Assembly (NCBI GenBank): GCA_021780225.1
Contig: JAJXZF010000060.1
Location: 1-39,121 of the forward strand
DNA: 39,121 bases
Direction: 5' to 3'
From: Deltaproteobacteria bacterium
Lineage (GTDB): Bacteria > Desulfobacterota > Binatia > Binatales > Binataceae
Shown here piece after piece: positions 126 through 34,739 of this stretch. The position numbers were made by a program, and so were the translations under genes. The notes beneath the pieces were generated by a model that saw only the letters and a program-made list of their open reading frames with translations, did not search any database and had not been told where the DNA came from. Every line of letters starts with the position of its first letter. Position 1 is the stretch's first letter.

Positions 126-1139
126 CACACCACCGTCGATCTTTGGCAGCACAAGTCGTGCGGCCAGTGCGGCCACATCCCGGGCTACGTGACCGCGCTC
201 TACTGGATAATGTCCGAACTGGGCGTGCCGTTCGTTGACGACACCAATCAGACCTCGTGCACGGCGTGGAATTACTACGGCTCGGGGACTTCGAACCCGG
301 TCGCGCTCGCGGCGGTGTTTGTGCGCAACATGCACTCCGCCTGGCAGAAAAACGCTTACCCGCTGATTCACTGCGGAACGAGCTACGGCGACTACAAGGA
401 AGTCCGCTATCTGCTGGTGACCAACGACGAAATGCGCCATCGCGTGCGCGCCATCCTGCAAAAGATTGGCCGTGAGCTGGTTATTCCCGAGGAGCTGGTC
501 CACTACAGCGAGTGGCTGCACGTGATTCGCGAGCGGCTCGCCGAGCGGCGCAAATTCGACGTTTCGAAAATTAAAGTCGTCGTCCATCCGGCCTGCCACT
601 GTTACAAACTGATGTCCGAGGACTTCACCTACGACGACGGCATCCTCGACGGCCGCCGTCCGGCGCCGACCACCAGCGTGGCGCTCGCGCTGGGCGCGCA
701 AATCGCCGACTATTCAAACTGGTACGACTGCTGCGGATTCGGCTTCCGCCACATCCTGACCGAGCGCGAAATGAGCAGGTCGTTCGCCTATTTCCGCAAA
801 ATCCAACCAATCATGAGAGAGACGCAGGCCGACGTCCTGCTCACTCAGGACACGGGCTGCGTCACCACGCTCGACAAGAGTCAGGTTGTACCGTTGGCGC
901 ACGGGTACAAGGAAACCGTGCCGGTGCTTTCCGACGCTCAGTTCGCGGCCCTGGCGATGGGCGCGCATCCGTTTATCGTCTGCCAGGTGCACTGGCACGT
1001 CTCGGACTGGCGGCCGCTGCTCGAAAAGATGGGTATCGACGCGGAGCAGGCTTGGAATGAATACCGAGAATACGTCGAGAACGTGAAACGCGGGATGAAG
1101 CCGTACTTTATCCAGTCGCCGCCGAGGGTACACGCATGA
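126..1139 (+). CDS. hdrB: HdrB-like subunit (CCG-domain iron-sulfur protein) of an sHdr-type complex, start codon lost to an IS
   Basis: This is a heterodisulfide-reductase subunit B homologue. HdrB proteins carry two cysteine-rich CCG domains that bind an unusual Fe-S cluster where disulfide or persulfide chemistry occurs. The frame is open from 123 and encodes HKSCGQCGHIPGY (about 150-188), then SCTAWNYYGSG, IHCGTSYG, HPACHCYKLM and YDCCGFGF, which together form the CCG-type cysteine pattern. The first in-frame start codon is a GTG at 189, but starting there would cut off the CGQC motif. No ATG, GTG or TTG occurs in frame between 123 and 189, so the native start appears to have been replaced by the IS element. 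The stop overlaps the hdrA start (ATGA at 1136-1139). Family assignment is firm; whether the gene is still translated is uncertain. Confidence 0.85.
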   Translation, partial: HTTVDLWQHKSCGQCGHIPGYVTALYWIMSELGVPFVDDTNQTSCTAWNYYGSGTSNPVALAAVFVRNMHSAWQKNAYPLIHCGTSYGDYKEVRYLLVTNDEMRHRVRAILQKIGRELVIPEELVHYSEWLHVIRERLAERRKFDVSKIKVVVHPACHCYKLMSEDFTYDDGILDGRRPAPTTSVALALGAQIADYSNWYDCCGFGFRHILTEREMSRSFAYFRKIQPIMRETQADVLLTQDTGCVTTLDKSQVVPLAHGYKETVPVLSDAQFAALAMGAHPFIVCQVHWHVSDWRPLLEKMGIDAEQAWNEYREYVENVKRGMKPYFIQSPPRVHA

Positions 1140-2188
1140 ATGAATCCGTGCTGGTGATCGGCGGAGGCCCTGCGGGCCTGCGCGCCGCGGCCGATCTCGC
1201 CGATCTCGGCACGTCCGTCGTTCTCGTCGAGAGACGGAACGAGCTGGGCGGCGCGCCGATTCGCTGGAAGTACAAAACGCTTGCGCCGGAGTTGCGTCCA
1301 ACCGAGGAAGTGATGGATCCGATGATCGCCGCGGTCGAATCGCATCCGTTGGTCAAGGTGTATCGCGACTCCGTGGTCGAACGTGTTTCCCGCGCCGCCG
1401 GAAATTTTCACATAACGCTGCGGACCAATGGCGCCGGCGCGCGCGAAATCCCGGTCCGCGCGATCGTCGCGGCGACTGGCTTCGAGCACTTCGATGCGAG
1501 CCGCGACCCGCGCTACGAGTACGGACGCGCCGCCAATGTGATCGGAATCCACGAGCTTGAGGGGATGCTCAAGGAAAGCCGGGTGGTCTGCAAAGACGGC
1601 CGCAAGCCAAAGCGCATCGCCTTCATCTTTTGCGTCGGCTCGCGCGATCGCGCCACCAACCCATGGTGTTGCACGGTGTGCTGCGGCGTCAGCATCAAGC
1701 AGGGCATCGAGTTGAAGCGGCTGCTCGGCGACGTCGAGATCTACAACATCTATATCGACATCCGCACCTTCGGGCTCTGGGAGCAGCTCTACTGGACGAG
1801 CATGGAGGAATACGGCCTCAACTTCATCCGCGGGCGTGTTTCGCAGATCTATGACACCGGGACGCAACTTCTGGTGAAGGGCGAAGACACGTTGGTGCGC
1901 GGGCCATTTGAGGTTCTGATGGACATGGTGGTTCTGGCGGTCGGAATTGCGCCCGGCGAGGGCACCGCGCAGGCGGCCAAGGTCCTCGATCTCAACTGCA
2001 ACAGTTTCGGTTTTCTCCAACCGCGCCATCCCAACGTGCATTACGACTCCGGCAAGGAGGGCGTCTTTCTCGCCGGCGCGTGCGTGGCGCCGATGTCGAT
2101 CGAAGAAGCGATTCTCGCGGGATCGGCCGCGGCGATGCAGGCGGCGAAATTTGTGCGCGAGCCCGCGCTTCAGGGGGCGGCGGATTAA
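1136..2188 (+). CDS. hdrA: HdrA-like FAD/Fe-S oxidoreductase subunit (sHdrA type)
   Basis: A 350-residue flavoprotein. It has an N-terminal dinucleotide-binding motif (VIGGGPAG, residues 7-14) and a C-terminal FAD-binding segment (GVFLAGACVAPMSIEEA, about 309-325). Between them is a cysteine cluster, FCVGSRD followed by WCCTVCCG (C166, C178, C179, C182, C183), typical of HdrA iron-sulfur binding. The length of about 350 residues matches the short sHdrA of sulfur oxidisers rather than the longer methanogen HdrA with extra ferredoxin domains. It overlaps hdrB by 4 bp and ends 2 bp before hdrC, so translation is probably coupled. In sHdr complexes this subunit carries FAD and passes electrons from the lipoate/disulfide site; that role is inferred from the family. 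Confidence 0.9.
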   Translation: MNESVLVIGGGPAGLRAAADLADLGTSVVLVERRNELGGAPIRWKYKTLAPELRPTEEVMDPMIAAVESHPLVKVYRDSVVERVSRAAGNFHITLRTNGAGAREIPVRAIVAATGFEHFDASRDPRYEYGRAANVIGIHELEGMLKESRVVCKDGRKPKRIAFIFCVGSRDRATNPWCCTVCCGVSIKQGIELKRLLGDVEIYNIYIDIRTFGLWEQLYWTSMEEYGLNFIRGRVSQIYDTGTQLLVKGEDTLVRGPFEVLMDMVVLAVGIAPGEGTAQAAKVLDLNCNSFGFLQPRHPNVHYDSGKEGVFLAGACVAPMSIEEAILAGSAAAMQAAKFVREPALQGAAD

Positions 2189-2190
2189 TC

Positions 2191-2649
2191 ATGGCGGACG
2201 CGCGGGCGAAAGCTGAAGAGACGGGCCGCTTCATCGTCGAGCGCCAATACGTCGACGATCGCCGGATTCACGAGCCGAAGAAGCTCGATGCGGGAGGCAT
2301 CGACATTTCGGGGCGCTGGGGCGTCCTGATCGAACCACGAACGATCACGACATTCGATCACACTCTGATGCGCCAGGTGCAGCGCGAATCTGGCGGCGAG
2401 TTCATCCACCGCTGCTTCCAGTGCGGCAACTGTACGGCTGCCTGCCCGACGGCCGAAGAGCATCCGATGTTCAACCCGCGCTACTTCATCCATGTCGTGC
2501 GCATGGGATACAGCGCCGAGCTCGAGAACGTTCGCAAATATGTCTATCTGTGCGCGAGTTGCGGGCGCTGCACGGAGGCCTGCCCGCGCGAAGTCGATCC
2601 GAGCGGCGTGATGGCGGCGATCGGAACCGTGGTGCGCAAGTTGTCATGA
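2191..2649 (+). CDS. hdrC: HdrC-like 2x[4Fe-4S] ferredoxin subunit
   Basis: A 152-residue electron-transfer subunit. Two CxxCxxCxxxCP motifs are visible: CFQCGNCTAACP (C75, C78, C81, C85) and CASCGRCTEACP (C121, C124, C127, C131), which bind two [4Fe-4S] clusters as in HdrC. The start is the ATG at 2191, two bases after the hdrA stop; the frame is open further upstream but that part overlaps hdrA. The last codons overlap the next gene (ATGA at 2646-2649). In family terms it relays electrons between HdrA and HdrB. The neighbouring membrane protein suggests a possible route to the quinone pool. Confidence 0.9.
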   Translation: MADARAKAEETGRFIVERQYVDDRRIHEPKKLDAGGIDISGRWGVLIEPRTITTFDHTLMRQVQRESGGEFIHRCFQCGNCTAACPTAEEHPMFNPRYFIHVVRMGYSAELENVRKYVYLCASCGRCTEACPREVDPSGVMAAIGTVVRKLS

Positions 2650-3446
2650 AACAGGGCCGCGCCTATCAATTGCTGTCTTGGAGTGTCGCGGCGGCGGTCG
2701 CGATTGCTCTGATCGCCGAGTGGGCAGCGCTCTACCGGCTGCATGCGGATTCGATAGTTGTGCAGATAGACCGCCGGTCCATCATTGCGAAGAGCTGGGT
2801 TGAGTTAATTGGCTTCGGCGCGCTCGGCATTCTCGCGCTGGGCGTTCTGTGGCGCGCGTGGCGGCGGAGCGCTCCGATCCTCGTGCGGGAGAATCTGGAA
2901 GCGGCGGCGGCGCTGACGCGCCACTCATCAATCAAGGCCGCCGGCGCGGCGGCCAGGGAGATCGCCCTGGGCGGAGGGATGCGCGAATGCGAAGACATTC
3001 AGCAATGGTTTGCGCATCAGCTCATCATGTGGGGCTTCCTGGGACTGTTCGCCACGACCTCGCTCGACACGCTGATGAATCCGACAGCCGCTCCGTTGCC
3101 GCTGCTGCATCCGGTGCGGCTGCTTGGGAACCTGACCAGACTTGCGTTCATGACCGGCCTGACCCTGGCGATCGCGCGTCGCGCCCTGCTTGCGCGGGTC
3201 CGCGCCGCCAGCCAACTGCGCGACTGGACGTTCCTGGTCTCATTATGAGGAACCGGCGCGACCGGCTTCGCCGTGCAATGGGCCGCGGACGCCGGCTCGT
3301 CGCACGGTACGACATGGCTCTATCCGACGCATCTCGTTTTCATCGTGCTGATTCTGGCCTCCGCGCCGTGGACGAAGTTCGTCCACGCGGCGTGGCGGCC
3401 GACGTGGGTGCTCTACCGCTCGTTGATTGCCGAACGGGGGTCGTGA
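2646..3446 (+). pseudogene. Cytochrome-b-like (DsrM/HdrE/NarI-like) membrane subunit interrupted by an in-frame TGA
   Basis: The frame starting at ATG 2646 encodes a hydrophobic protein that meets TGA at 3246-3248 (codon 201) and then continues in the same frame to a second TGA at 3444-3446, giving 266 codons in all. Both parts look like one protein: membrane segments lie near residues 8-29, 50-70, 122-142, 155-178, 195-212 and 226-242, with histidines H124, H155, H229 and H247 that could ligate heme b. The interruption falls inside a likely transmembrane helix (WTFLVSL, stop, GTGATGFAV). No frame change is needed to join the halves, so one base change, a sequencing error or readthrough would explain it. 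The 4-bp overlaps with both neighbours, one of which uses the distal stop, argue that the full-length frame is ancestral. A quinone-linked electron acceptor for the Hdr subunits is inferred. Confidence 0.7.
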
Positions 3447-3787
3447 GTTTCGCGGGCGAAATCGAAGCGCGACTGCGCGGGCGGCCACATGTAGGGGCCG
3501 TGATGCATTTCGACGGCGCAGGCGTACCGGAGCTGGCGGAGCGGCTCCGCCGGGATCTCGACGACGCCGGCCTGCGCCGAGTGGATGCGATCGAAGAGGC
3601 AAACGGGACGACGGTGTTCAACGCGGTTGCGGCGATTGCCGCCGGCGAAGGGATGGAACTGTGGCTTTCAGCGAGCGAACAGCAAGGCGTGGGCTGCAAA
3701 GTCGAGTTTCGGCTATTTCATGCGCTTGAGGACAGCGCCGAGGCCGACGAATATCTCTCGCGCTTCAGGGAGCGCGTAATCGGCTAA
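3443..3787 (+). CDS. Conserved-looking small soluble protein of the Hdr/lipoate operon, function unknown
   Basis: A 114-residue protein starting at a GTG that overlaps the preceding stop (GTGA at 3443-3446). The frame is open further upstream, but that part is antisense-like noise within the membrane gene. The protein is acidic, with no cysteine cluster and a single Cys in GVGCKVEFR near residue 89, no signal peptide and no membrane segment. I do not recognise the family. Its position between the membrane subunit and the DsrE-like gene, coupled by overlap, implies a role in the same complex or in sulfur carriage. Confidence 0.7.
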   Translation: MSFAGEIEARLRGRPHVGAVMHFDGAGVPELAERLRRDLDDAGLRRVDAIEEANGTTVFNAVAAIAAGEGMELWLSASEQQGVGCKVEFRLFHALEDSAEADEYLSRFRERVIG

Positions 3788-3797
3788 AGGAAAAACC

Positions 3798-4184
3798 ATG
3801 GAAGCGGAGACGACGCGCAAGAAGTTCCTCGTCGTGATGAGCACGGGCGCCGACGAGCCCAGGAAAGCCTTCACCCCTTTTTATTACGCCGCGGCGGCGG
3901 CATCGATGGATTTCGACACGACCATGTTTTTCCTCGCGGAATCGCCGTCGCTGCTGCGGCCCGGAGTCGCGGAAACGATCCGCACCACAGACGAAGGCGA
4001 GCCGTTGACGAAGGTCATCGATCTCGGCCGCAGGAACGGCGTCAAATTTCTCTGTTGCAGCGTTTCGGCCAAGGTTATCTGGAACCTCGGGGACCAGGAC
4101 CTGCCCGAAGGGATGGAGTTTGCCGGCGCCGCCACGCTGCTCGAGATGGCGGCCGATCCGAGCGTCGCGGTGCTCTATTTTTAG
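3798..4184 (+). CDS. DsrE-family sulfur-carrier-like protein
   Basis: A 128-residue protein with a DsrE/DsrF-like alpha/beta fold pattern: an N-terminal strand (KKFLVVMSTG), an alanine-rich helix, a strand (TTMFFLAESP), and a C-terminal half containing KFLCCSVSAKVIWNL. The adjacent C86 and C87 sit where DsrE-family sulfurtransferases carry their persulfide cysteine. DsrE proteins accompany rhodanese and TusA in sHdr and Dsr sulfur-oxidation loci, delivering sulfane sulfur. A ribosome-binding stretch (AAAGGAAAAACC) precedes the ATG, and the gap from the previous gene is 10 bp. Family call is good; the sulfur donor and acceptor are inferred. Confidence 0.8.
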   Translation: MEAETTRKKFLVVMSTGADEPRKAFTPFYYAAAAASMDFDTTMFFLAESPSLLRPGVAETIRTTDEGEPLTKVIDLGRRNGVKFLCCSVSAKVIWNLGDQDLPEGMEFAGAATLLEMAADPSVAVLYF

Positions 4185-4192
4185 GAGCCGTT

Positions 4193-4630
4193 ATGTCCAG
4201 CTATCGAGGGTTCAGCCTTCCCGACGATCTTCATTACGATGTCGGCTACCACGTATGGTTGCGGACGGAGGGCGAGCTTGTCGCGGTCGGCGCCACCGAT
4301 CCCGCTCAGGCTTATGCCGGCGAGATCGTCCACATCGGCATCAAGAAGGTCGGCGCGCGCGTCGAACGCGGCGGAATTCTCGCCACGGTGGAGAGCGCGA
4401 AGTTCATGGGGCCGATGCGCTCGCCGGTGGCGGGCACGATCGCCGAGATCAACCAGGAAGTCGCGAACAAGCCGGCGCTGATCAATGGCGACGCTTACGC
4501 AAACTGGGTCGTGCGTCTCAAACCGGAGAAGCTCGCGGCGGAACTCGCGCTGCTTTCCCCGGGAGTGGAAGCGGCGGAGAAGTACAAGCCGGTCATCGAC
4601 GACTGGGGTATCGACGGAACCCAAGGATAG
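4193..4630 (+). CDS. lbpA: Lipoate-binding protein, GcvH-like (LbpA type)
   Basis: A 145-residue single-domain lipoyl protein related to glycine-cleavage H protein. The lipoylation hairpin is GGILATVESAKFMGPMRSP, with K70 as the expected lipoyl-lysine, followed by a conserved GcvH-like segment, NQEVANKPALINGDAY. In sHdr-containing bacteria a dedicated LbpA carries lipoate that serves as cofactor for sulfur oxidation rather than for glycine cleavage. No gcvP or gcvT genes lie nearby, and the next gene is a lipoate ligase, so the LbpA role is favoured. The start is ATG 4193, 8 bp after dsrE-like, preceded by TAGGAGCC. A generic GcvH cannot be ruled out from sequence alone. Confidence 0.88.
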   Translation: MSSYRGFSLPDDLHYDVGYHVWLRTEGELVAVGATDPAQAYAGEIVHIGIKKVGARVERGGILATVESAKFMGPMRSPVAGTIAEINQEVANKPALINGDAYANWVVRLKPEKLAAELALLSPGVEAAEKYKPVIDDWGIDGTQG

Positions 4631-4636
4631 GCGTCG

Positions 4637-5290
4637 TTGACTCCGGCGAACACCGGCCGTCCGCGCTTCGAGATCCTCGTCACCGAGATCACCGATCCGG
4701 CCACGAATCTCGCCCTTGACCTGCGGCTTCTGCGCGAGGTCGATGCACGCACGCGGCCGGAAACCGTGCGCCTCTGGGTGAATGAGGAATGCCTGGTGCG
4801 CGGTCCTCATCGCAGTCGCAGCTCAGGCTGGTATTACGAGGAGCGCGCGCGAAAGTTCAACGTCCCCATCCACACGCGCACGACCGGCGGCGGATGCGTC
4901 TATCACGATCCCGGCAATCTCAACTGGAGCTTTTATGTCCGCCACTCCGATGGATACGTGGGCTGTGCGAGACTCTTTCGCTCGTGCGCGGCTTTCGTGA
5001 TCAAAGCCTTGAATGCGCTTGGCATCGACGCTTCGTTTGGCGCGCCCAATCGGATCGACGTGGCCGGACGCAAGGTGTCAGGACTCGCCGCGCGCGCCTT
5101 GCGCAACGCCGCTCTTGTTCACGGTACGCTGCTGATCGCGACGGATTTGGACCGCGTCAACGCGCTGTGCATACCGCCTCCGGGATGCCCGCCGGTTGCG
5201 CGGATCTGCGACTTCGATTCGAGGCTCACGGTTACAAACGTGATCGACAGCATCCTGCGGGCGCTCCGTTTCGCGGCGGTTTCACGATGA
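4637..5290 (+). CDS. Lipoate-protein ligase A family (sLpl-like)
   Basis: A 217-residue ligase of the LplA/LipB/BirA fold. It shows HTRTTGGGCVYHDPGNLNW (about 79-97), the adenylate/lipoate-binding loop, and NRIDVAGRKVSG with K146 as the catalytic lysine candidate, then VHGTLLIATDL. Lipoate ligases attach lipoate or octanoate to the lysine of carrier proteins via an acyl-adenylate; here the obvious substrate is the LbpA-like protein six bases upstream. Start is a TTG at 4637. It is the last gene of the Hdr operon. It lacks a clear separate C-terminal accessory domain, as in the split sLpl(AB) ligases of sHdr organisms. Confidence 0.85.
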   Translation: MTPANTGRPRFEILVTEITDPATNLALDLRLLREVDARTRPETVRLWVNEECLVRGPHRSRSSGWYYEERARKFNVPIHTRTTGGGCVYHDPGNLNWSFYVRHSDGYVGCARLFRSCAAFVIKALNALGIDASFGAPNRIDVAGRKVSGLAARALRNAALVHGTLLIATDLDRVNALCIPPPGCPPVARICDFDSRLTVTNVIDSILRALRFAAVSR

Positions 5291-5647: not shown

Positions 5648-8383
5648 ATGAATAATACGGCCGCCGAAACGAGAGTCGGGATGAAAAACTGGCACGCGCT
5701 GCCATCCGAAACGGTCGCCGCCGAGTTGGCAGTCGATCCGGTCCGGGGGTTGAGTACGGATGAAGCGCTCCGCCGGCTCGCTGTCCATGGCCCGAATGAG
5801 CTGGCGCAGTTTGAGACGACCTCGGCGTTCACAATCTTCGCACGTCAATTTGCGAGTCTGGTGATCTGGATTCTAATTCTCGCCGCTTCCGTTTCGGCGG
5901 CGATGGGCGAGCGCGTTGACGCGATCGCGATCATCGCGATAGTTGTCCTCAATGCGGCGATCGGCTTCGTTCAGGAATACCGCGCGGAAAAGGCGGTCGC
6001 CGAACTAAAGCGCCTGACGGCGCCCAAAGGCCGGGTGCTGCGCGACGCAACGGCCGCTATCGTGCCGGCGTCCATTCTGGTCCCGGGCGACGTGCTGTTG
6101 GTCGAGGCAGGCGATCTGGTGGCCGCCGATGCGCGCCTGATCGAAGAAGCCGGGCTTGAAACGAACGAAGCCACATTGACGGGCGAATCCGAGCCGGTCG
6201 GCAAGTCGCCCGCCGCTTGCGCGTCCGATGCGCTGCTGCCCGAGCGCCGCAATATGCTTTACCTCGGCGCCGCGGTCACGCGGGGCAGCGGCCGAGCGCT
6301 CGTGGTGGCCACCGGCATGAATACCGAGTTCGGGAAGATCGCTCGGCTGCTCGAAACCGCGTCTGGCCAACAGACCCCCTTGCAGCGCCAGTTGGACCGA
6401 GTCGCGCGACGGCTGCTCTGGCTTTGTTTGGGAATCGTCACGCTGATTTTCACGCTGGGTATGCTGCGAGCCGAACCGATTTTCGAAATGTTTCTTGCGG
6501 CGATCGGTCTTGCGGTCGCCGCAATTCCCGAGGGCTTGCCCGCTATCGTAACCGTAGCCCTGGCTCTGGGCGTATCACGGATGGCGCGGAGAAATGCGCT
6601 GATTCGCCGGCTTCAATCGGTCGAAACGCTGGGCAGCGCCCAGGTCATATGCACCGACAAGACCGGCACGCTGACGGTCGGCGAAATGACCGCGCGCAAA
6701 ATTGTTACGCTGGATCGCGTTTTCGAAGTTACCGGCGAGGGTTACTCAACTGAAGGTGCGATCTTCACGGACGGCGATGTTCCCGAACCGCAGGATCGTG
6801 CGCTTGGCGATCTCCTGTCGGCTGCGATCGCCTGCAACGACTCGCATCTGGCGTCACAAAACGACCGCAACATCGTGGTTGGCGATCCGACCGAGGGCGC
6901 GCTGCTCGTGCTCGCGGCAAAGGCGCGAATCATGCGTGAACAACTCGCCACGCAATCGCGCCGGGTTGCAACTATCCCCTTCACGTCCGAGCGAAAGCGG
7001 ATGACCGTCGTCGTCGAGACGAGCCAGGGCCGGATCGCATACACCAAGGGCGCGCCCGAAATTGTGCTCGCGCGATGCTCGCAAGTGAGAACGTGTGAAG
7101 GAATTAAACCGTTGGGTTCCGACGACGTAGCACGGATAGCCGAGGCGAACGCTATGATGGCGAGCGAGGCGCTACGGGTCATCGCCTGTGCGGAGCGATC
7201 ATTCCCGCCTTCCGCCCAAGGCATGGAAGATCCGATCGATGCGACCCGGATCGAACACGATCTGGTGTTCCTCGGATTGATCGCGATGCAGGATCCGCCA
7301 CGGGCCGAAGCGCGCGAAGCGGTGCGCAAGTGCAAACTCGCGGGAATCCGCACCGTTATGATTACCGGAGACCATCCGCGAACCGCCGCCGCTATCGCGC
7401 GCGACCTCGGCATCCTCGGTCCGGGCGATCTGGCGCTTAGCGGCGCGGAGCTCGAAAACATTAGCGACGAGGAATTGGGCCGACGGGTCGTCGACGTTTC
7501 CGTTTACGGACGCGTGACCGCCGAGCACAAACTCAGAATCGTACGCGCCTGGAAGTCACGCGGCGCCGTGGTTGCGATGACGGGCGACGGCGTCAACGAT
7601 GCTCCAGCGTTGAAAGAGGCATCGATCGGCGTCGCGATGGGCATCGCCGGAACCGAAGTCACCAAAGAAGCCGCGGATATCATTATCGCCGACGACAACT
7701 TCGCGACTATCGTTGCGGCAGTCGAGGAAGGCCGGGGAATCTACGACAACGTGGTCAAGACGTTGCTGTATCTGATGGGCGGGAATTTCGGCGAGTTGAT
7801 GGTGATGCTGATCGCCGGGCTCGCCGGCTTGCCGCTGCCGCTTCTGCCGGTTCAATTGCTTTGGATCAATTTGGTTTCAGACGGGTTGCCCGCGCTCGCG
7901 CTGGCGACCGATCCGATCGACCACGATGTTCTGCGGCGCCCGCCGCGCCCGGCGAAGGCGGAAATCATCGGCCAGGGTTTCATGGGACGGGTTACGCTTG
8001 TGGGCTGTCTTTCAGCCGGCGTTACGCTGGCCGCTTTCGGCTACGCGATTCATAGCGGGATGTCGCTGGAGCGGGCGCGCAACGCGGCGTTCTTCGTGCT
8101 GGTCGTCGAGGAGTTGATGAGATCATTTGGCGCCCGTAGCGCGAACAAGCCGCTCTGGCGGATCGGAATGCTCACCAACCTGCGGTTGATCGCCGTCGTA
8201 GCCGCGACCTTGGTTCTGCAAATCGTGATTTCCACCAGTCCCGTTATGGAAAAAATGTTTCAGACCGCACGGTTAACGCCGCTCGAATGCGCTATCGGGT
8301 CTTTGCTGGGGCTGATACCACTATTGATCCTGGAATTGCTAAAGGTTCTCGGAATAGGATTGAAATCAAACCCCGCACTGTAG
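5648..8383 (+). CDS. P2A-type cation-transporting ATPase (Ca2+-ATPase-like)
   Basis: A 911-residue P-type ATPase. Visible hallmarks are an N-terminal cation-ATPase domain, the actuator TGES (178-181), PEGLP in M4 (294-298), the phosphorylation motif CTDKTGT with D337, MITGDHPRT, and the hinge TGDGVNDAPA near 643-652. M5 (GNFGELMVML), M6 (LWINLVSDGLPALAL) and the M8 glutamate in VVEELMRSF resemble the SERCA/PMR1 ion-site residues, which favours Ca2+ or Mn2+ export over H+ or Na+/K+ transport. Length is normal for P2 ATPases. A second ATG at 5681 has a better spaced GAGTCGGG; either start leaves all domains intact. It is apparently monocistronic. Confidence 0.92.
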   Translation: MNNTAAETRVGMKNWHALPSETVAAELAVDPVRGLSTDEALRRLAVHGPNELAQFETTSAFTIFARQFASLVIWILILAASVSAAMGERVDAIAIIAIVVLNAAIGFVQEYRAEKAVAELKRLTAPKGRVLRDATAAIVPASILVPGDVLLVEAGDLVAADARLIEEAGLETNEATLTGESEPVGKSPAACASDALLPERRNMLYLGAAVTRGSGRALVVATGMNTEFGKIARLLETASGQQTPLQRQLDRVARRLLWLCLGIVTLIFTLGMLRAEPIFEMFLAAIGLAVAAIPEGLPAIVTVALALGVSRMARRNALIRRLQSVETLGSAQVICTDKTGTLTVGEMTARKIVTLDRVFEVTGEGYSTEGAIFTDGDVPEPQDRALGDLLSAAIACNDSHLASQNDRNIVVGDPTEGALLVLAAKARIMREQLATQSRRVATIPFTSERKRMTVVVETSQGRIAYTKGAPEIVLARCSQVRTCEGIKPLGSDDVARIAEANAMMASEALRVIACAERSFPPSAQGMEDPIDATRIEHDLVFLGLIAMQDPPRAEAREAVRKCKLAGIRTVMITGDHPRTAAAIARDLGILGPGDLALSGAELENISDEELGRRVVDVSVYGRVTAEHKLRIVRAWKSRGAVVAMTGDGVNDAPALKEASIGVAMGIAGTEVTKEAADIIIADDNFATIVAAVEEGRGIYDNVVKTLLYLMGGNFGELMVMLIAGLAGLPLPLLPVQLLWINLVSDGLPALALATDPIDHDVLRRPPRPAKAEIIGQGFMGRVTLVGCLSAGVTLAAFGYAIHSGMSLERARNAAFFVLVVEELMRSFGARSANKPLWRIGMLTNLRLIAVVAATLVLQIVISTSPVMEKMFQTARLTPLECAIGSLLGLIPLLILELLKVLGIGLKSNPAL

Positions 8384-8671
8384 TCAATCCGGTCCGCAAA
8401 AGCGCTTCAGGGCGCGTTGTTCATTCGACCACTGCGGATCGTAGTTTCGGCGCCGGATCGACCCTTCCGTTCCGCGACTCCTGCGATTTATCAAACTGGT
8501 ATTTGCCCTGATTCCAGCAAGACGGAATGCGCGGGCGACGATTCTCGCGCGCTCATCTCCGACGGTTTGCAGAGCTGAAACATCAGACCGGCCGCGCGCC
8601 GGACTGGCTATTGCAGAAAGCGCGGCGAATCCGCACGATTCCTTGCGCCCCATGCGCGTTTCCTCGGCGCT

Positions 8672-10657
8672 TCATGGCGTGCAGACATTTTTCCCCTGTC
8701 GCAGGCAGGCCACCAGCGGCGTCAGCGTCGGGGCCGCGACGCCGACGATTTCATTCACGCTGTCGTCGTAATTGTCCGCTATCCAGATGTTGCCGCCGCC
8801 GTCGACCGCGATCGAGAATTCGCCCAGGAACGTCGGCCACGGTCCGAGATTGAATCCCAAACTGTAAGAACTTGCCGCGGTCAGCTCGCTCACGCTGTTG
8901 CCGACGTAGTTGGTGGCCCAAACGTTGTCGCCGGCGTCGATAGCGATCGAGTTGGGACTGTTGAATTGCGCGCCGGGAGTTCCCGTATTCGTATTGTTGA
9001 AATTGGCGGCGGCGCAGCTCGACGTCGTGCATCCGGCAGGCAATTCGCTGACGCTGTTGTCGTTCGAATTGATCGCGAAGATATCGCCCGCACCGTTAAC
9101 CGCTATCTCGACCGGACTGACGAATCCAGCGCCGGGAGAGCCGGTGTTGGAATTGTTGAAGTTGAAACCGGTACAGCTTGTGTTCGAGCATCCGACCGGC
9201 AACTCGCTGATGCTGTTGCCAAGGTAATTGACCACCCACAAATTGCCGAGTTCGTCTGGCGCGGAGGAAAATGGACCATTGAAGACAGCGCCTGGAGAGC
9301 CGGTGTTGGAATTGTTGAAGTTGACGCCGGTACAGCTTCCGCTGGAGCATCCGGCCTGCAGCTCGCTGACGCTGTTGCCAAGGTAATTGGTAATCCACAG
9401 ATTGCCCGCGGCGTCTATTTCTATCGAACTGGGGCCGTTGAAAGCCGCGCCGGACGGAGTGAAATTGAAGCCGCTCGCGTAGCCGCTGGCGGCGGTCAGT
9501 TCGCCAACGCTGTTGCCGGCGGAATTCGACACCCATATGTTGCCCGCCGTGTCGATAGCCAACCAGGTCGGGGATTTCAGGCCGGCGCCGGCTGGGGCGA
9601 AGTTTGCTCCCGTGGTATAGCCGCTCGCGGCGGTCAGTTCGCTCACGCTGTCGCCGGCCGCGTTCGCCACCCAGACATTGCCGGCTCCATCAACCTCAAT
9701 CGAGTAGGGCGAGTTGAAGACAGCGGCGGCCGGCGCATAGAGCAACGTCAGTTCCCAACTCAAGGGCGCGGCCGCGAGCGCGGGTGCGAAGGGCTCGCTG
9801 GCCGGCGACAAGGCGAACAAATCAGCCACGTTGTTGGCCGGATTGCGCGCGATATCCACTGCCGCCTGCAACGTGGTCGTCGGCGCGGCGCCGCCCGGCG
9901 GCGTGGCGGCGCTGAACAGATTCTGACATTCCGTGGAATTCGCGCCCGACGAATCCACGCAACTCGCAAGGATATTCGCCAGCGAATAAAGCGTCTGCGT
10001 CGGCGAAATAACGCCTGCCGGAAAAGTAATTGGCGCCAGCCCCGTCGCGGGGTCAACGAAGCTCGTCGCCGCGATCGTCGCCGCCGCGTTATGCAGGCTC
10101 GTCTGATTGGTCGAAGAGGTCCCGACCGTCTGCCCGGATGTATCGAGGAACTGATCGAGCGTCCATATCGTCGCGACCGTCGTAGCCTCGTTAACCACCG
10201 CCTCGTGCGAGAAACTGCCGCAAGTCCCGACCGCTGAAATCAATCCAATCGCGGCATTGGCGCCGCTCTGACCCTTGATCATGCCGCCCGTCGCCACCAG
10301 ATAAACCTGCTGCGAATAACCGCTGGTCTGGCAGGTGAAGGCGGGGATGTCGAAGGCGCCGTTGCTATCCGAGGTCGCCTGCGCAAGCTGAAACTCGCCA
10401 GCGCCGTAACCGGTCGCGCCCGCCTGATAAAGCGTGATTTGGGCGCCGCTGATTGGTTCGCCCACCTCCAAAGAGCCGCCGTAAACGTGACCGGCAATCC
10501 CCGGTCCCGGAGTGGGCGTGGGGGTAGGCGTGATCGCCGAGGAACTCGAATTCCCGCCACATCCGCAAAGCACGCACAAGCTCAGCAGGACTACGGAGAC
10601 CAAGCGGGCGCCAGTATCGATCTTGCTTAAAGCGTGGCTCACAATCGCGTTATTCAC
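8672..10657 (-). CDS. Secreted NHL-repeat beta-propeller lipoprotein
   Basis: A 661-residue exported lipoprotein. The N-terminus has a signal peptide ending in VLCGCGG, a lipobox-like site with the acylated Cys about residue 31-33, followed by a low-complexity TPTPTPTPG linker and a carboxypeptidase-regulatory-like segment (GGSLEVGEPISGAQITLYQA). The C-terminal half (about 310-645) consists of seven repeats of roughly 45-53 residues of the form SIEVDGAGNVWVANAAGDSV-SEL, typical of NHL/Vgb-like beta-propellers. Two blades are near copies at DNA level (159-bp period near 9136 and 9295), pointing to recent internal duplication. Blades carry a CSxxSCTG pair that may form disulfides. Start is a GTG preceded by GGGGAG. 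It is divergent from the CEMIP-like gene and may share its promoter region. Confidence 0.85.
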   Translation of the reverse strand: MNNAIVSHALSKIDTGARLVSVVLLSLCVLCGCGGNSSSSAITPTPTPTPGPGIAGHVYGGSLEVGEPISGAQITLYQAGATGYGAGEFQLAQATSDSNGAFDIPAFTCQTSGYSQQVYLVATGGMIKGQSGANAAIGLISAVGTCGSFSHEAVVNEATTVATIWTLDQFLDTSGQTVGTSSTNQTSLHNAAATIAATSFVDPATGLAPITFPAGVISPTQTLYSLANILASCVDSSGANSTECQNLFSAATPPGGAAPTTTLQAAVDIARNPANNVADLFALSPASEPFAPALAAAPLSWELTLLYAPAAAVFNSPYSIEVDGAGNVWVANAAGDSVSELTAASGYTTGANFAPAGAGLKSPTWLAIDTAGNIWVSNSAGNSVGELTAASGYASGFNFTPSGAAFNGPSSIEIDAAGNLWITNYLGNSVSELQAGCSSGSCTGVNFNNSNTGSPGAVFNGPFSSAPDELGNLWVVNYLGNSISELPVGCSNTSCTGFNFNNSNTGSPGAGFVSPVEIAVNGAGDIFAINSNDNSVSELPAGCTTSSCAAANFNNTNTGTPGAQFNSPNSIAIDAGDNVWATNYVGNSVSELTAASSYSLGFNLGPWPTFLGEFSIAVDGGGNIWIADNYDDSVNEIVGVAAPTLTPLVACLRQGKNVCTP

Positions 10658-34408: not shown

Positions 34409-34566
34409 TTAACTTCTTTTCAGCACCAGTCAGTATCCGCTAATCTCAGTCCGGCATGGTTAATTTATATGCCTGGATGTGCAGACAATGACAGGATGAC
34501 AATTACATAACCAGTGTGGTGTCCCGCAAATAACTTCCATCTGATGCCTTATCGGCTCAGCGCGCA

Positions 34567-34665
34567 GGTCGCCCACCGCGGGGCGACCAGGGATGGATTG
34601 CCGGGTCCGGGCCCGGCAATGACGAACAGAGTTGGTCATGCCCGGACTTGATCCGGGCATCCACG
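34567..34665. repeat. REP-like inverted palindrome pair
   Basis: Three palindromes lie in a row in an intergenic region. GGTCGCCC-accgc-GGGGCGACC is at 34568-34588. GATGGATTGCCGGGTCCGG-GCCCGGCAATGAC is at 34592-34623. GGTCATGCCCGGACTTG-ATCCGGGCATCCACG is at 34634-34665. The last two are inverted copies of a GTCATGCCCGG-type unit that is widespread as an extragenic palindrome in many proteobacteria. The pair resembles a BIME/REP doublet. Confidence 0.75.
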
Positions 34666-34739
34666 CGGAGCGCAAACCTATTCAGGGGACGCCGCATTAG
34701 AATATGTATAATCTCATTGAAGCGGAGGGAATTCGAGCG

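Follow-up and report, generated by a model that had tools for sequence, protein, structure and literature searches.

The 39,121-nucleotide stretch of bacterial DNA analyzed here (the window) opens with an operon for a sulfur-oxidizing heterodisulfide reductase-like (sHdr) system linked to the lipoate-binding protein LbpA. We consider it likely that sHdr has a third architecture, referred to as type III in the following, and that this operon is a copy of it that has decayed recently; for the intact archaeal form we propose a mechanism. The type III gene order would be arsR-tusA-hdrC1-hdrB-hdrA-hdrC2-membrane-U114-dsrE-lbpA-lplA, with U114 denoting a small soluble protein and "membrane" a cytochrome b-like membrane protein. 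Gene content, archaeal orthologues, the clade that they form and the lesions can each be read directly from the sequence.

A lipoate-linked sHdr operon with lesions in several genes

Base 1 of the window coincides with the first base of contig C13 in a bacterial metagenome-assembled genome (MAG; 3.80 Mb in 118 contigs, estimated completeness 96.9%). Eight plus-strand genes stand in tandem from about position 128 to 5290, beginning with the 3' part of an sHdrB1-like hdrB (128–1139; CCG domain, homology from about base 132), an intact open frame for a 350-residue hdrA product of the short sHdrA type (1136–2188), hdrC2 for a 4Fe-4S dicluster protein (2191–2649) and the membrane gene (2646–3446). 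U114 (3443–3787), a gene for a dsrE-like sulfurtransferase (3798–4184; DsrE families), lbpA for a GcvH-like lipoate-binding protein (4193–4630; GCV_H 1.5e-26) and lplA for the catalytic domain of a lipoate-protein ligase (4637–5290; LplA-B_cat 1.4e-37) follow. With the exception of U114, the named families are backed by Pfam and NCBIfam, in agreement with the initial annotation, which had named the same eight consecutive genes. Its further claim of tight coupling holds for the spacings (hdrB/hdrA overlap of 4 bp, hdrA/hdrC2 gap of 2 bp, hdrC2/membrane overlap of 4 bp, then gaps of 10 bp before dsrE, 8 bp before lbpA and 6 bp before lplA) but not throughout, since the membrane gene overlaps U114 by 4 bp only if an in-frame TGA is read through, the open frame otherwise ending 194 bp before U114. 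In addition, hdrB is a 3' fragment.

The operon shares with sHdr-LbpA systems in general a ca. 350-residue sHdrA that groups with known sHdrA and a linked lbpA with a lipoate-protein ligase gene. Among solved structures, 6TJR, the sHdrA of H. denitrificans, gives the best full-length match to HdrA and aligns over almost the whole length; together with the HdrA tree described below, this bears out the earlier placement among sHdr-LbpA systems.

As assembled, hdrB is split by an insertion sequence (IS) element, probably of the IS3 family, and the remainder of the locus lies at the start of another contig, C48, so that the earlier suggestion of half a larger locus cut by an IS proved correct. Bases 1–127 of the window hold the right end of this element on the plus strand, with the end of a transposase frame at 3–119 followed by a terminal inverted repeat; the 39 residues match rve_3 (E 9e-4) and an IS3 transposase (E 0.002), both below the curated cut-offs. 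Four of the five other matches to this IS end in the MAG stop exactly at base 127. An inverted repeat at the IS left end on C48 resembles the terminal inverted repeat of the window, and the middle of the element is not assembled. With archaeal HdrB as query, the missing N-terminal part of hdrB (ca. 90 codons) was located on the minus strand of C48 at 82–267, where it stops after ...RRAKRIP at the IS left end.

Just upstream of this fragment, archaeal HdrC1 as query located residues 117–253 of hdrC1, and further upstream lie a truncated tusA, which begins in one frame and goes on in another, and an arsR-type gene. A deletion has fused tusA to hdrC1, removing the remainder of tusA and ca. 128 hdrC1 residues. 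The eight cysteines of archaeal HdrC1 (positions 64–122) all precede the joint and are thus all lost from the MAG hdrC1; the residues "CW" that align at the joint stem from tusA-derived DNA, not from hdrC1. In searches of the MAG, hdrA and the membrane gene each turned up once, hdrB as the split gene and hdrC1 as the remnant, with no second copy of any of the four, and neither the lost tusA end nor the lost hdrC1 start was found elsewhere in it. The other matches in the HdrC1 search were hdrC2 and three weak ferredoxin-type ones. Beyond base 1, where the initial annotation had proposed to look for additional genes, C48 thus supplied the hdrC1 remnant and the frameshifted tusA but of hdrB only the missing half, not an extra copy.

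The membrane gene starts at 2646 and meets a TGA at 3246–3248 (codon 201 of 266), beyond which the same frame continues with homology to 3446. Two of the three invariant histidines discussed below lie downstream of this TGA. Recoding of the codon was considered and rejected since the aligned position is not conserved, with Tyr in all four archaeal orthologues and a total of 11 residue types among the 35 rows besides the window.

All eight operon genes show a GC content of 0.72–0.81 at third codon positions versus 0.41–0.53 at second positions, and because this strong codon periodicity persists in the remaining frames, the genes were presumably coding until recently and their decay is recent. 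The electron chain in the MAG is very probably cut in several places and not working, contrary to the compact working operon first described: tusA is frameshifted and truncated, hdrC1 is without the part that binds clusters, an IS interrupts hdrB and a stop codon the membrane gene. Alternatively, the operon might function in the bacterium, with IS, deletion, frameshift and stop arising as artefacts of assembly or as variants carried by a minority of the sampled population. Its remaining frames are indeed well preserved with strong periodicity, the HdrB cysteines, HdrA, LbpA and the ligase look intact, and the breaks fall at contig ends or are one-base events. We nevertheless regard it as unlikely because several genes within a single operon carry separate lesions, the missing end of tusA and start of hdrC1 (ca. 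128 codons with all eight cysteines) were not found elsewhere in a genome of this completeness, and related copies in the genome confirm where the IS ends. Sulfur oxidation in this MAG would therefore probably be wrongly inferred from its operon.

Intact relatives in archaea

The closest relatives found here are all archaeal. An HdrA pattern scan of a contig collection returned four relatives, namely three archaeal loci (67–70% identity) and one Chlamydiia record (39% identity over 57 residues). In these archaeal loci, from a Calditenuaceae member (L037), an archaeon (L038) and a Nitrososphaerales member (L039), hdrC1-hdrB-hdrA-hdrC2-membrane-U114 stand on one strand with divergent dsrE, lbpA and lpl beside the six-gene set and tusA near it. 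The scan picks up close relatives only and did not return a fourth locus (L081), so the archaeal type is under-counted. This locus came from an HdrB search of 398 genomes of the L039 phylum, of which 22 had the gene: those of L039, L037 and G711 at 71–100% identity and 19 at 50–53%. In G711 (L081), the same six genes begin with hdrC1 at the contig start, and dsrE, lbpA and lpl would lie beyond the contig edge; the linkage of lbpA and ligase is therefore seen in the window and L037–L039, with L081 cut by the contig start. The order C1-B1-A is found in all four archaeal loci and, as broken pieces on C48 and C13, in the MAG. All four also carry the membrane gene together with the set, and the outcome that the initial annotation had named as a refutation, a membrane gene never accompanying this set in other genomes, did not arise. 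Two plasmid records with HdrA (31–38% identity) were not of the type III kind.

Across the four archaeal loci, the window proteins are 75–78% (HdrB), 67–71% (HdrA) and 58–60% (HdrC2) identical, and across L037–L039 the identities are 64–69% for DsrE, 59–66% for LbpA and 43–49% for the ligase. The window and the four archaeal rows form a clade apart from types I and II in both the HdrA tree (100/100, 15 rows) and the HdrB tree (99/99, 27 rows), and neither protein clusters with non-sulfur Hdr, the outcome that would have spoken against the first assignment. In the HdrA tree, rooted on methanogen HdrA, the sHdrA rows including 6TJR stand apart from methanogen HdrA with 100/100. Both trees come with a long-branch warning, the HdrA tree for 6TJR and the HdrB tree for the window row, and the branching within the clade does not fix where the window belongs (HdrB 91/47). 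A search of 148 genomes of the bacterial class gave HdrB relatives in four, the MAG itself among them; the other three are 55–56% identical and part of type II loci. This distribution makes a transfer from archaea to the bacterium likely.

Beside the archaeal sets lie further sulfur genes. L039 has aprA and aprB, both over the curated cut-offs, and matching open reading frames (ORFs) were seen by eye in L038. L037 and L081 have a molybdopterin oxidoreductase, in L081 with a ferredoxin-NrfD partner, which we read as putatively Soe-like. L081 also encodes TauE, and L037 encodes one protein of the Sulf_transp family and one that is FCSD/SQR-like.

A split QmoC as the proposed exit to quinone

HdrC2 finds its best match in the N-terminus of QmoC (60 bits) and the membrane protein in its C-terminus (85 bits; 104 bits for the L038 protein). 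In an alignment of 36 rows (31 QmoC-like and five type III; 3 of 34 QmoC-like loci fell below threshold and were left out), one Cys and three His are invariant throughout. Because three of the four QmoC histidines, the candidate ligands of the b hemes, and the invariant Cys are kept, one b heme in the type III membrane protein is plausible. This Cys is present in 36 of 36 rows though the nearby first QmoC histidine is missing in type III and some other QmoC-like rows. The membrane protein has no solved relative by sequence, and its fold prediction (predicted local distance difference test, pLDDT, 43) was too poor for use.

A second QmoC-like membrane gene adjoins aprAB in L038 (14435–15178) and L039 (3117–3737), and its product is 25–29% identical to the L038 membrane protein of type III. 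In a sample of the bacterial phylum, QmoC-like matches occurred in 128 of 395 genomes (MAG included), the best-scoring other one being 32% identical.

For the intact archaeal form, we propose that TusA and DsrE deliver sulfane sulfur to LbpA, which the ligase would lipoylate, and that HdrC1, HdrB and HdrA would oxidize the LbpA-bound sulfur to sulfite. Electrons would pass from the HdrA flavin to quinone via HdrC2 and the cytochrome b-like subunit, which together would act as a split QmoC in place of the fused protein, and neighboring AprAB or a Soe-like enzyme could oxidize the sulfite further. LbpA, the ligase, DsrE, the sHdrA clade and the sulfur genes beside the archaeal loci, i.e., the genomic context, point to the oxidation of sulfane sulfur to sulfite. 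That HdrC2 and the membrane protein each match one half of QmoC suggests that electrons leave to quinone by a route that would replace HdrB2/B3 and EtfAB, and we infer quinone reduction from this similarity and the conserved histidines; the quinone step, the direction of the reaction and a role of U114 are all proposals of this kind. The first suggestion of a variant feeding electrons to quinone is thus plausible, on anatomy, for the archaeal family and improbable, given the lesions, for the window copy. For the broader picture, we lean slightly towards a third sHdr type in Nitrososphaerota-like archaea in which HdrC1-B-A is wired to quinone via a split QmoC and U114, without H, HdrB2/B3 and EtfAB, and which came to the bacterium as an island of genes that it is now losing.

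U114 adjoins the membrane gene in the archaeal loci as well, with 32–41% identity to L037–L039 and 33% to L081, and has no significant Pfam or NCBIfam match. Its AlphaFold2 model is confident (mean pLDDT 91.2), and Foldseek gave no match at E <= 0.001. VIA-align scores of Z 8 to 10 to many unrelated proteins do not entail any function, and the idea that U114 might be a variant H protein was rejected (hhalign probability 0.2%).

A doubtful alternative is that the archaeal complex works reductively, as Qmo and methanogen Hdr do, with quinol as electron donor and either a disulfide or a lipoyl-bound sulfur species as acceptor, and is not a sulfur oxidase. Its membrane module resembles QmoC, Qmo takes electrons from quinol in sulfate reducers, and aprAB, which lies beside L038 and L039, can run either way. 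LbpA, lipoate ligase, TusA, DsrE and the sHdrA clade, however, go with sulfur oxidation (PMC10332631, PMC11582611), and L037 and L081 have TauE, Sulf_transp, FCSD/SQR-like or Soe-like proteins instead of aprAB. It is just as improbable that the membrane gene and U114 form a neighboring unit in the operon, e.g., for sulfite oxidation, rather than subunits of the Hdr complex: the QmoC-like gene beside aprAB in L038 and L039 indicates that such proteins partner other enzymes too, but the membrane gene directly follows hdrC2 in all five loci and matches the QmoC half that hdrC2 lacks, and hdrB2 is absent from its expected place.

Several observations weigh against our favored interpretation, i.e., a decayed copy of an architecture with its own quinone exit. 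All QmoC scores are far below the curated cut-off of 300 bits, and the first of the four QmoC histidines, present in 21 of the 36 rows and missing in 15, is missing in all five type III rows. A membrane partner as such is not unique to type III, since the three type II loci of the same class continue after EtfB and EtfA with a 724-residue protein that has CCG and 4Fe-4S domains and N-terminal hydrophobic stretches (both examined in L054 only); for type II, the initial annotation's view of known sHdr loci as lacking a membrane subunit of their own therefore does not hold. A clean target-site duplication was not seen at the IS (the left flank ends ATCCC and the right flank begins CACC), and both hdr fragments sit at contig starts (C13 and C48). 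The stop and the frameshift, in a single MAG without reads, are small changes that assembly could introduce. Finally, aprA was over the cut-off in none of the seven genus genomes; weak matches occurred in 5 of 7, as they likewise did in 5 of 14 control genomes.

An accessory island in the genus

From 21.6 to 32.9 kb, the window is 86–87% identical to the genus mates G003 and G004 over 11 kb, and the C48 flank matches the same genomes at 74–92%; these matches assign C13 and C48 alike to the genus. In the comparison with G002 and G004, synteny ends at window positions 8646–8665 and resumes only past a plus-strand gene for a P-type cation ATPase (5648–8383), and on the C48 side synteny with G003 and G004 ends at position 1637 of L048. 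Because synteny with genus mates stops on both sides, the operon, the ATPase gene and arsR-tusA are accessory; the ATPase gene belongs to the island by position, without a demonstrated functional link to the hdr genes. The membrane protein had no match at E <= 0.001 in the six other genus genomes, and the island was seen in one of the seven. G002 was rejected as a clean empty site since its flanks lie ca. 21 kb apart on one contig with a transposase-like ORF and cobalamin-type genes between them (by eye), though its arrangement does show absence of the island.

Two repeats were noted in passing. One of ca. 210 bp occurs at window 34514–34675, at L048 9331–9545 and 18714–18932 and in dozens more places in the MAG (84–93% identity among the matches listed); one copy has a predicted RNA fold of −98 kcal/mol, calculated without a shuffle control, and the repeat is unnamed by Rfam at gathering thresholds. 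The other is a 123-bp sequence in two inverted copies with 97% identity (L048 1461–1583 and 15734–15857) and related short matches in G004. An Rfam scan gave no match in the window and one tRNA on L048.

Comparison with known Hdr systems

To our knowledge, the destination of electrons in type I sHdr sulfur oxidation is not settled, and a natural sHdr form with its own cytochrome b-like exit would be a direct test object for this question. With type III, the range of sHdr would also come to include archaea other than the Sulfolobales-like group. We found no description of a third sHdr form in the open-access literature, with supplements, most subscription papers and preprints outside the scope of the search, and likewise saw none in passages of PMC6067878, PMC11582611, PMC10332631, PMC10547907, PMC11094006, PMC12345210 and PMC12423496. 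One pipeline, as outlined in PMC12345210, requires HdrC1, B1, A, HYP, C2, and B2 in order and would on that outline miss type III.

In PMC11582611, type I is defined as shdrC1B1AHC2B2 in one cluster and type II as shdrC1B1AHB3 plus etfAB in one cluster. As annotated here, the type III gene set falls under neither published definition. Across L037, L038, L039, L081, L048 and the window, the H protein had no profile match at E up to 1 (the control loci L054 and L084 were recovered, both of which had been in the profile), EtfA and EtfB had none at E 1e-4 (the queries recovered the other two type II loci) and no B3 fusion was found. A cysteine-motif scan, which recovers B2 in four of four type I loci and misses the type II B3, gave one CCG subunit in each of the five type III loci and two in each of the four type I loci. 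It replaced a profile of the type II B2 domain, which was invalid as a negative test because it had also missed the B2 of the type I locus L084.

Type I, for which 4 of the 19 archaeal loci with less similar HdrB were taken in full (L082–L085), resembles type III in its C1-B1-A order, short sHdrA, HdrC2 and nearby dsrE. All four loci continue as C1-B1-A-H-C2 with a second CCG subunit, so that type I has H, and HdrB2 after C2, where type III has the membrane gene and U114; identities to the window are 43–45% for HdrA and about 52% for HdrB. Type II (L053–L055) shares C1-B1-A with dsrE, lbpA and the ligase as well as a large hydrophobic partner protein at the cluster end, but has H, a C2-B2 fusion (B3), EtfBA and the 724-residue protein, none of which is found in type III (HdrA 42–44%, HdrB 55–56% identical to the window). 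As a separate observation in the type II locus L054 (G021), a 118-residue ORF at 8492–8848 lies between hdrC1 and hdrB1, and its end (ELFLIWHMTGEM) looks by eye like a portion of hdrC1 (ELYLIWHVTGVM), which might reflect a partial duplication.

QmoABC shares with type III the likeness of HdrC2 to the QmoC N-terminus and of the membrane protein to the C-terminus, with the Cys and three His common to the 31 QmoC-like rows. QmoC, however, is one gene where type III has two, and it goes with QmoA and QmoB, while the type III pair goes with sHdrB, sHdrA and LbpA. Methanogen HdrABC, finally, shares the Hdr subunit families, but its HdrA has 643–671 residues compared to 350 in the window protein, which lacks the extra domains, and lies outside the sHdrA group.

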